Positions 13,066-14,966 of a DNA stretch of 64,000 bases are shown one piece after another; within the stretch, counting starts at the first letter, position 1; every line of letters starts with the position of its first letter. The position numbers and the translations under genes were made by a program. Below the pieces are notes generated by a model. The model ran no database searches. It was not told the DNA's origin and saw only the letters and a program-made list of their open reading frames with translations. The stretch is from positions 1,498,627-1,562,626 of the forward strand of contig SJOL01007351.1 of NCBI GenBank assembly GCA_004794785.1, given 5' to 3'. This DNA is from Opisthorchis felineus (lineage: Eukaryota; Platyhelminthes; Trematoda; Opisthorchiida; Opisthorchiidae).

Positions 13066-13185
13066 TAATTCACTTGCTGCCCCGTGCTGACCTGGAAGGA
13101 AAAGCTGATTTCAGATCTGTGTCCTGTCTTAGTTAAATGATTCACGATTTGACTTCCAGTTGATTCAGTCATACTCGGGGACTGC

Positions 13186-13228
13186 GCCTACCTGATGAGC
13201 CCCAAGAAGGGCAAAACCGGTCGTGGGC
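13186..13228 (+). ncRNA. Hammerhead ribozyme, array unit 1, G12 mutated
   Basis: Same layout as the other units, but the GAAAC box reads AAAAC: position 13213, which corresponds to catalytic G12, is A. The terminal unit is therefore predicted inactive. Confidence 0.85.
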
Positions 13229-13492
13229 TGTCGAAGAATTTTCAGCAACCTTATGAGCAGTACATTACGAGTATACATGTATCACGATATCTCGAATATC
13301 GTAGCAACTGAAACATGAGGCGGCCTGGTGCAACACATTCAGTTGCCTGGAAACATCACAAACGAGAGATTCAGCTGGGTTCCAGGTGAGTCTCTCGCAA
13401 AACCAAATTTGTTTGCAGATGAGTGTATTTCGCCAATTTCGTGCAATTTGGTTTCAAGTAGAACATAAGGTTGACGGAAACTCGGGGACTGC

Positions 13493-13535
13493 GCCTACCT
13501 GATGAGCCCCAAGAAGGGCGAAACCGGTCGTGGGC
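13493..13535 (+). ncRNA. Type I hammerhead ribozyme, array unit 2
   Basis: Stem I pairs GCCTAC (13493-13498) with GTGGGC (13530-13535), six pairs including one G-U. The core is CTGATGAG (13499-13506). Stem II pairs GCCC with GGGC around a CAAGAA loop (13506-13519). GAAA is at 13520-13523 and the cleavage triplet GTC at 13527-13529, so the predicted cut is between 13529 and 13530. Stem III is the self-complementary ACCGGT (13523-13528) with no room for a loop. Such short stem III motifs are known to work mainly as dimers, which the array would supply. Confidence 0.92.
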
Positions 13536-13799
13536 TGTCGAAGAATTTTCAGCAACCTTATGAGTAGTGCATTACGAATATACATGTATCGCGATATCTC
13601 GAATATCGTAGCAACTGAAAAATGAGGCGGCCTGGTGCAGCACATTCAGTTGCCTGGAAACATCACAAACGAGAGATTCAGCTGGGTTCCAGGTGAGTCT
13701 CTCGCAAAACCAAATTTGTTTGCAGATGAGTGTATTTCGCCAATTTCGTGCAATTTGGTTTCAAGTAGAACATAAGGTTGACGGAAACTCGGGGACTGC

Positions 13800-13842
13800 G
13801 CCTACCTGATGAGCCCCAAGAAGGGCGAAACCGGTCGTGGGC
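13800..13842 (+). ncRNA. Type I hammerhead ribozyme, array unit 3
   Basis: Identical to unit 2 by reading. All core boxes are intact; the predicted cut follows 13836. Confidence 0.92.
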
Positions 13843-14106
13843 TGTCGAAGAATTTTCAGCAACCTTATGAGTAGTGCATTACGAATATACATGTATCGCG
13901 ATATCTCGAATATCGTAGCAACTGAAAAATGAGGCGGCCTGGTGCAGCACATTCAGTTGCCTGGAAACATCACAAACGAGAGATTCAGCTGGGTTCCAGG
14001 TGAGTCTCTCGCAAAACCAAATTTGTTTGCAGATGAGTGTATTTCGCCAATTTCGTGCAATTTGGTTTCAAGTAGAACATAAGGTTGACGGAAACTCGGG
14101 GACTGC

Positions 14107-14149
14107 GCCTACCTGATGAGCCCCAAGAAGGGCGAAACCGGTCGTGGGC
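14107..14149 (+). ncRNA. Type I hammerhead ribozyme, array unit 4
   Basis: Identical to unit 2 by reading. All core boxes are intact; the predicted cut follows 14143. Confidence 0.92.
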
Positions 14150-14413
14150 TGTCGAAGAATTTTCAGCAACCTTATGAGTAGTGCATTACGAATATACATG
14201 TATCGCGATATCTCGAATATCGTAGCAACTGAAAAATGAGGCGGCCTGGTGCAGCACATTCAGTTGCCTGGAAACATCACAAACGAGAGATTCAGCTGGG
14301 TTCCAGGTGAGTCTCTCGCAAAACCAAATTTGTTTGCAGATGAGTGTATTTCGCCAATTTCGTGCAATTTGGTTTCAAGTAGAACATAAGGTTGACGGAA
14401 ACTCGGGGACTGC

Positions 14414-14456
14414 GCCTACCTGATGAGCCCCAAGAAGGGCGAAACCGGTCGTGGGC
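14414..14456 (+). ncRNA. Type I hammerhead ribozyme, array unit 5
   Basis: Identical to unit 2 by reading. All core boxes are intact; the predicted cut follows 14450. Confidence 0.92.
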
Positions 14457-14720
14457 TGTCGAAGAATTTTCAGCAACCTTATGAGTAGTGCATTACGAAT
14501 ATACATGTATCGCGATATCTCGAATATCGTAGCAACTGAAAAATGAGGCGGCCTGGTGCAGCACATTCAGTTGCCTGGAAACATCACAAACGAGAGATTC
14601 AGCTGGGTTCCAGGTGAGTCTCTCGCAAAACCAAATTTGTTTGCAGATGAGTGTATTTCGCCAATTTCGTGCAATTTGGTTTCAAGTAGAACATAAGGTT
14701 GACGGAAACTCGGGGACTGC

Positions 14721-14763
14721 GCCTACCTGATGAGCCCCAAGAAGGGCGAAACCGGTCGTGGGC
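14721..14763 (+). ncRNA. Type I hammerhead ribozyme, array unit 6
   Basis: The ribozyme is identical to unit 2, although the end of this last unit has diverged. The predicted cut follows 14757. Confidence 0.92.
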
Positions 14764-14966
14764 TGTCGAAGAATTTTCAGCAACCTTATGAGTAGTGCAT
14801 TACGAATATACATGTATCGCGATATCTCGAATATCGTAGCAACTGAAAAATGAGGCGGCCTGGTGCAGCACATTCAGTTGCCTGGAAACATCACAAACGA
14901 GAGATTCAGCTGGGTTTCTGGTGAGTCTCTCGCAAAACCAAATTTGTTTGCAAATGAGTGTATTTC

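Follow-up and report, generated by a model that had tools for sequence, protein, structure and literature searches.

We analysed a 64,000-nucleotide stretch of the genome of the trematode Opisthorchis felineus (assembly GCA_004794785.1, contig SJOL01007351.1, positions 1,498,627 to 1,562,626 of the forward strand; hereafter the window), which contains a tandem array of 307-bp units with hammerhead ribozyme motifs at positions 13173-14966. This array probably represents one arm of an inserted non-autonomous element of the Penelope type, the 307-bp unit of which resembles the pseudo-long terminal repeat (pseudo-LTR) of Penelope-like elements (PLEs) and would have been mobilised by a PLE enzyme. 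Insertions of this family have arms that point apart, two fixed end sites and, in a subset, duplications of 9-14 bp, and by analogy with described elements this anatomy is that of PLEs. A family with 1,940 exact ribozyme copies, fixed ends, duplications and a pairing rule for its two end sites, A and B, links a unit of retrozyme-like character with the Penelope route.

Insertions of the 307-bp family across the genome

The assembly searched comprised 630 Mb in 1,848 contigs. The exact 37-nt ribozyme was found in 1,940 copies (960 + 980), a count that gap-filled units would inflate, and its reversed control in none. With 40 of 1,672 candidates scored, the exact 307-bp unit was present at no fewer than 40 loci, each on its own contig and one of them in the window. 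A sister family with 293-bp units was found at loci L048-L055 and is tandem at many loci (40 of 4,723 candidates scored). When the core 307-bp unit was compared with the 293-bp unit that is repeated seven times at L055, 0/60 differences were seen in the initial 60 positions, where the ribozyme lies, and 53/247 in the remainder; because array interiors may be gap-filled, this is a comparison of two common sequences and not of independent copies. The exact ribozyme pattern had no matches among viral contigs and other genome contigs, a collection in which close relatives of the genome under study may be missing.

Insertions were counted as two-armed when their arms lay within 170 bp of each other. 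Arms were taken from blastn, the nhmmer calls having been set aside as confused by self-complementarity inside the unit. In all 20 two-armed insertions among the 40 array loci, the window array included, the arms pointed apart, and the same orientation was seen in the seven other window insertions with both ends readable (27/27 overall). The older window copies E6, E8 and E10 likewise read as arms pointing apart. Among the first 100 of the 1,940 ribozyme places, 30 pairs of neighbouring exact ribozymes lay less than 700 bp apart, and these comprised 22 tandem pairs (13 spaced 307 and nine spaced 293), eight head-to-head pairs and no tail-to-tail pair.

Right ends could be counted for 33 of the 40 arrays, seven that touched N having been set aside. 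Sixteen of these ends fell at site A (unit positions 90-110) and 15 at site B (unit positions 258-275), with one each at unit positions 36 and 181 and none at the ribozyme cut (unit positions 45-55). Against a uniform spread this clustering has a P value of 7e-26, both windows having been picked post hoc. One A end and one B end were found in 20 of the 22 insertions readable at both ends, with no A/A or B/B insertion; this pairing held for eight of eight insertions in the window, judged by eye, and for 12 of 14 fetched loci, the exceptions being L014 and L018, each with one end elsewhere. Locus L035 was initially taken for a B/B insertion, which was overturned by a deleted A end in its flank. 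With B 93 nt upstream and A about 47 nt downstream, the ribozyme cut is flanked by the two sites, and arms ending at A run through the uncut ribozyme site. From these ends we infer that A and B are reverse-transcription start sites.

Target duplications were assessed in 29 insertions, namely all 21 fetched loci without N and eight window insertions. An exact common flank of at least 9 bp (range 9-14 bases) was present in 10 of the 29, compared with 3 of 812 mismatched pairs, and a best 12-mer score of at least 11 was reached in 9/29 and 1/812, respectively. Examples include duplications of 13 bp in L012, L013, L017 and E9, and of 14 bp in L020. Simple insertions without an inverted arm also carry a duplication (L013 and L017, and more weakly L016, with 9 bp).

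The inner ends of the arms showed a further cluster, with 14 of 48 falling at unit positions 170-184; an equally rich 15-nt window was found in none of 10,000 random sets. This cluster looks like the 5' end of a linear RNA or a reverse-transcription stop, and a hairpin predicted just downstream could halt reverse transcription there. A single inner end of the 48, in the plus arm of L033, starts at unit position 50, the predicted cut, which could be chance.

The array of the window and its ribozyme

A preliminary description of the window had reported six units at exact 307-bp spacing with a hammerhead in every one. The spacing was borne out by Tandem Repeats Finder, which gave 13173-14966 as a 307-bp tandem of 5.8 copies with 99% matches, the sole 307-bp array that it gave. 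Six unit starts were indeed found, of which units 2-5 are mutually identical and unit 1 has seven differences; the sixth unit, however, has only 259 bp and three differences, and diverges past 14966, which is site B. The locus also proved larger than the array, as an inverted arm, which has a ribozyme too, occupies 12821-13033 on the minus strand to its left. Between the arms of this insertion, some 100-140 bp do not clearly resemble the unit and look like captured host DNA.

Comparison of the 40 loci calls for caution about the number of units. Counted inwards from the array edge in steps of 100 bp, differences from the core unit amounted to 399/7960, 230/8000, 66/7718 and 18/6294, and to none in 32,732 bases beyond 400 bp, against 5.0% within the first 100 bp; the loci had been selected for holding the exact core unit, which biases them towards identity. 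Runs of N occurred in 18 of the 40 fetched stretches and all 18 touched the array, eight being single bases, although the long runs need not all be assembly gaps. In the window array the differences are confined to less than 160 bp from the left edge and less than 50 bp from the right edge. Because old, diverged edges surround perfect centres at many unlinked loci, filling of gaps with the majority unit best explains these data, and we see roughly an even chance that the window tandem is mostly an assembly product, in which gap closing placed majority-unit copies between two real edges. Against this stand the diverged tandem of E2 (1.6 units, 92-95%), which has no identical filling, locus L014, where three diverged stretches surround one core unit, and the window array itself, which contains no N. 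The identity of units 2-5 and the unit number are probably assembly products, and the 5.8 copies of the window are doubtful and to be treated as unverified; this would put a limit on how many copies there are but leave the kind of element unaffected. More generally, perfect identity in such ribozyme arrays can arise from assembly.

The combination of identical central units with diverged edge units would also suit an ordinary satellite, grown by unequal crossing-over and only superficially like a mobile element. Gap filling accounts better for the identity of the centre, however, and the presence of the unit on at least 40 contigs, with target duplications and fixed ends, makes such an origin very improbable. 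Local homogenisation of the centre by unequal crossing-over was dropped on similar grounds: the unit is on 40 contigs, differences lie within about 340 bp of the edges and N is found at the arrays.

Each ribozyme motif consists of stem I with an outer 3-bp extension beyond a TGC/T internal loop, CTGATGA, a 4-bp stem II with a 6-nt loop, GAA and ACCGGT, the last of which is self-complementary and constitutes helix III as a zero-loop palindrome. The predicted cut follows GTC, at 13529/13530 in unit 2. On reading the sequence, the stems, the palindrome and this cut site were all as previously claimed. The claimed order holds in all six units, with GAAAC itself in units 2-6; unit 1 reads CAAAAC in place of CGAAAC, an A at 13213 replacing G12. 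Loss of G12 should abolish hammerhead cutting, and the unit 1 ribozyme is therefore predicted to be dead, which leaves the motif in all six units and an intact one in five. On the minus strand, at 12852-12894, there is a seventh hammerhead, whose catalytic core is intact.

When positions 12800-15000 were scanned with Rfam at relaxed thresholds, Hammerhead_HH9 matched all six units (36 bits for units 2-6 and 33.1 for unit 1, with a gathering score of 52) and Hammerhead_1 matched the inverted copy at 12852-12894 on the minus strand (29.8 bits, with a gathering score of 34). At curated gathering thresholds, Rfam gave no match in the whole window. A 45-nt ribozyme pattern allowing up to three mismatches had 10 matches in the window and none in 100 shuffles.

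A single motif had been expected to be poor and a dimer active, and in silico this was the case. In the predicted two-strand fold, the stems I, each with the outer 3-bp extension, and the stems II are all formed and one 6-bp ACCGGU helix III is shared, at -44.5 kcal/mol compared with -20.2 kcal/mol for one strand; the single 65-nt strand is predicted to misfold and not to reach the active form. A hammerhead with this palindromic helix III would thus be predicted to act as a dimer. The circular monomer has a predicted fold of -100 kcal/mol (z -4.6), with none of 200 shuffles as low. The fetched loci and the window together hold 211 full-length ribozyme copies, of which 35 differ from the core, and the catalytic core is retained in 24 of these 35.

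Proposed mobilisation of the unit and possible role of its hammerhead

The following comparisons draw on excerpts of the cited papers. The PLEs considered here, PAc/Poseidon of Anolis and the Pen families of Adineta vaga, resemble the present family in having a type I minimal hammerhead in the pseudo-LTR with the start of an open reading frame (ORF) at the ribozyme, as well as tandem and head-to-head inverted copies, target duplications and internal reverse-transcription starts (PMC11167929, PMC3846280). PAc cleaves and extends both target strands, giving cDNA from two internal sites, and the hammerhead at the start of its ORF is aided by protein (PMC11167929). In the PLEs of Adineta, the pseudo-LTRs are inverted head to head, the duplications measure 8-10 bp and a tail may or may not be present; these pseudo-LTRs are also described as able to move other DNA in trans (PMC3846280). 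The O. felineus family shares with such elements its head-to-head inverted copies, its duplications of variable length (in a subset), its fixed internal ends and a minimal hammerhead with a palindromic helix III. This zero-loop helix resembles the minimal hammerhead form reported in PLEs (PMC7761336, PMC6155905). There are also differences. The 307-bp unit is without a reverse transcriptase (RT) or endonuclease ORF, the exact duplications are mostly 11-14 bp rather than 8-10 bp, and the end sites flank the ribozyme at a distance of about 140 nt, whereas in PAc the tail between the starts has 30-40 bp and the main start is downstream of the cut.

The preliminary description had called the array a retrozyme array. 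Set against the retrozymes of Cervera and de la Pena (2020), this name is half right: it stands as far as tandem type I hammerhead repeats without a protein are concerned, but the insertion anatomy is Penelope-like. Metazoan non-LTR retrozymes are likewise described as tandem repeats, 170-400 nt in length, that contain a type I hammerhead, encode no protein and behave as retroelements; theirs, however, are canonical ribozymes with demonstrated circular RNA (PMC7229834). A canonical ribozyme in this sense has contacts between loops 1 and 2 and a real helix III; the present motif has a TGC/T internal loop and a 6-nt loop II, but a zero-loop palindrome for helix III. PLEs have been named as a strong candidate helper for animal retrozymes (PMC7229834), the repeats of which, in the relevant part of a 2020 review, are without a conserved motif that reveals the helper element (PMC7761336); here, ends and scars would reveal one. 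In a canonical animal retrozyme, transcripts would self-cleave, the 307-nt monomers would be circularised and rolling-circle reverse transcription would write the arrays. The tandem 307-bp units, the type I hammerhead and the strongly folded monomer fit such a scheme, a circle easily explains multi-unit arms, and similar elements yield abundant circular RNA in coral, mussel and axolotl, with platyhelminth repeats mentioned as well (PMC7229834). A circle does not, however, predict the inner-end cluster at unit positions 170-184, and with none of the 33 right ends at the cut, the genomic ends do not need a circular 307-nt RNA; the zero-loop palindromic helix III is also closer to the PLE form. 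We therefore regard a canonical retrozyme as a tentative alternative, compatible with mobilisation by a PLE and differing in the template.

Two further hammerhead repeats are informative. The 335-bp SMalpha/W36.2 satellite of Schistosoma is also a trematode repeat with a type I hammerhead, reported as short interspersed nuclear element-like and likened to the present unit by description, not by sequence (PMC8490949). The hammerhead satellites of newt and axolotl share a weak palindromic helix III and are active as dimers (PMC7229834), with a single-pair stem and a palindromic tetraloop in place of the zero-loop 6-nt palindrome found here. Literature searches showed no such family in the titles and abstract beginnings listed; for hammerhead ribozymes they gave one small-RNA paper on schistosomes with Clonorchis sinensis and nothing with Opisthorchis. 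An earlier description elsewhere, for example in Repbase, is possible, and the available portion of the O. felineus genome paper contains no mention of Penelope or of a ribozyme (PMC6530080).

The unit has a 21-amino-acid frame that starts inside CTGATGA and ends QQP(Y/C)E-stop. When its peptide was compared with the N-terminus of Anolis PAc, the score of the 293 form was matched by 0/1000 shuffles and that of the 307 form, more weakly, by 43/1000; the GET residues give no independent evidence since the ribozyme forces them. As this frame at the ribozyme is the only one, the unit was filed as a non-autonomous PLE-type element and not as a PLE. PLEs are nonetheless present in the genome. At locus L068 (G000:C324:19400-23400) a PLE is repeated every 2,888 bp (99.8%) with an intact ORF in tandem, which gave RVT_1 at 1.8e-8 and GIY-YIG at 19.6 bits, just under the Pfam cut-off of 22.6, and a minimal hammerhead-like sequence with a palindromic ACGT was read near the ORF start. 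At L069, a PLE by RT similarity, the RT-bearing frame passes through a hammerhead-like core. Many long frames resembling that of L068 were noted in the genome.

Candidate extensions and partners were rejected in several cases. A coding frame past site A was tried on 95 copies without the T after GAK, mostly GAGC (a single change) among those listed, and yielded no long frame among the 150 candidates scored. Unit-like pieces lie near three of six PF01541 loci (L062, L065 and L066), none of them positioned like a pseudo-LTR. No link to the array was found for an RT fragment at 44556-45212, whose two protein matches have 215 and 304 amino acids.

A number of observations weigh against the assignment to a Penelope-type element. 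The 307-bp unit encodes no RT or endonuclease, just the 21-amino-acid frame, and no autonomous PLE sharing the unit as pseudo-LTR was found, none of four PLE-like loci, sampled in part, aligning to it; the 150 scored of 22,303 peptide candidates included no open frame longer than 82 amino acids. The frame peptide had no similarity to the one host PLE compared, L069 (538 and 437 of 1000 shuffles), and at the DNA level the A end is weakly similar to the start region of the Anolis element (535/1000 and 22/1000 shuffles), a similarity that was rejected for the core unit, in which it is not significant. The predicted fold of the L068 hammerhead is not unusual (z -1.16). Base-pair covariation did not exceed that of shuffles and was dropped as proof of the fold. 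Nineteen of the 29 insertions are without an exact common flank of at least 9 bp, and no target duplication is convincing at the window insertion (12821-14966), where the match of 8/13 is at chance level. Antisense matches 550-1,260 bp to the right of the arrays at L012, L015, L024 and L026 were treated as separate copies. Finally, single copies decay neutrally (4.5% difference in the catalytic core and 5.2% elsewhere); the ribozyme would therefore be kept in the source lineage and not at each site.

With these points considered, mobilisation of the unit by a PLE enzyme would probably proceed as follows. A tandem or read-through transcript would be made, its 5' end perhaps near unit positions 170-184, although the same inner ends would be expected if reverse transcription stopped at a strong hairpin. 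Adjacent units would then pair via ACCGGU and may cut at unit 50/51, as predicted. A PLE protein supplied in trans would bind the uncut RNA or a religated circle and make a staggered cut in the genome, of which the 9-14-bp duplications seen in a subset would be the scars. One target strand would prime reverse transcription at A and the other at B, giving the observed ends, and the meeting of the two cDNAs would leave the arms pointing apart. Multi-unit arms could come from a multimeric or circular template, and the unit number may change afterwards or in assembly.

The role of the hammerhead in PLEs has been called a mystery (PMC7761336). A speculative and rather unlikely proposal is that the ribozyme acts as a switch between the two reverse-transcription start sites, the uncut RNA offering A and the upstream cut piece keeping only B; the pairing of one A and one B end in 20 insertions would then arise because a dual-primed insertion uses one of each. 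If true, this would supply the long-sought role of hammerheads in Penelope-type elements. By analogy, the in vitro data on PAc, in which ribozyme mutants had no effect on insertion, argue against a general need for cutting. It is likewise possible, though we would not favour it, that the ribozyme is a bystander, which overlaps the PLE ORF start and a protein-binding region and is conserved for their sake, cutting being irrelevant to mobility. In Anolis, PAc ribozyme mutants leave in vitro insertion unchanged and RNA reads ending at the cut were absent (PMC11167929); here, the ends avoid the cut, A-ended arms would have been copied from uncut RNA, and the conserved stretch reaches upstream of the ribozyme (unit 271-307, 2/37 differences between the 307-bp unit and the L055 293-bp unit). 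On the other hand, all the catalytic nucleotides and ACCGGT are kept in both units compared, beyond the needs of a short coding stretch. The position of the cut between A and B makes the role of the ribozyme directly testable.

Related insertions and other features of the window

About a dozen related copies elsewhere in the window were found by blastn and nhmmer (Table 1).

Table 1 Coordinates of the array, its units and related insertions in the window
Feature	Position	Strand	Basis
Array, probable arm of a two-armed insertion	13173-14966	+	Tandem Repeats Finder, unit comparison
Starts of the 307-bp units	13173, 13480, 13787, 14094, 14401, 14708	+	Unit comparison
Hammerhead of unit 1 with A instead of G12 at 13213, predicted to be inactive	13180-13232	+	Unit comparison, Rfam, pattern scan
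Intact type I hammerhead of unit 2, predicted cut after 13529	13487-13539	+	Rfam, pattern scan, dimer fold
Intact hammerhead of unit 3, predicted cut after 13836	13794-13846	+	Rfam, pattern scan
Intact hammerhead of unit 4, predicted cut after 14143	14101-14153	+	Rfam, pattern scan
Intact hammerhead of unit 5, predicted cut after 14450	14408-14460	+	Rfam, pattern scan
Intact hammerhead of unit 6, predicted cut after 14757	14715-14767	+	Rfam, pattern scan
Short frame from the ATG inside CTGATGA, 21 amino acids MSPKKGETGRGLSKNFQQPYE before a TAG stop, recurring in the units, perhaps a remnant of the start of a PLE ORF	13502-13567	+	Frame reading, comparison with Anolis N-terminus
Site A of unit 2 (unit ~95-108), outer end of one arm, putative reverse-transcription start	13574-13587	+	Right ends, duplication-delimited ends
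Site B of unit 2 (unit ~258-275), outer end of the other arm, putative reverse-transcription start	13737-13754	+	Right ends, duplication-delimited ends
Inverted arm, ~0.7 unit, seventh hammerhead, ends at site A	12821-13033	-	Unit comparison, Rfam, nhmmer
Spacer between arms, no clear blastn similarity to the unit; nhmmer extends the inverted arm to 13078	13034-13172	.	blastn, nhmmer
E1, old two-armed insertion with B at its left and A at its right end	1923-2222	.	
E2, two-armed insertion, 1.6 tandem units, 92-95% identical to core	5033-5622	-	
E4, old two-armed insertion	9911-10364	.	
E8, old copy, arms on both strands	33307-33730	.	
E9, two-armed insertion of the 293-bp sister family, 13-bp duplication TAAATCTGGTCTA at 39724-39736 and 40125-40137	39737-40124	-	
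E10, old diverged copy, arms on both strands	48045-48883	.	
E11, very short two-armed insertion, 10/11-bp duplication	55002-55094	.	
E12, two-armed insertion, 11/13-bp duplication	55821-56165	.	
E13, two-armed insertion, sister type	58949-59390	.	

The RT fragment at 44556-45212, on the minus strand, resembles others in the same genome, with 45% identity to the next match. A gene for a basic helix-loop-helix transcription factor of the achaete-scute type lies at 36180-37328 on the minus strand; the named relatives of its protein are all from flatworms, the best being from the trematodes Paragonimus, Dicrocoelium and Calicophoron and from schistosomes, with no opisthorchiid among them. At 62862-62951, a perfect ATAG microsatellite of 22.5 copies adjoins a ATATACATAT repeat.

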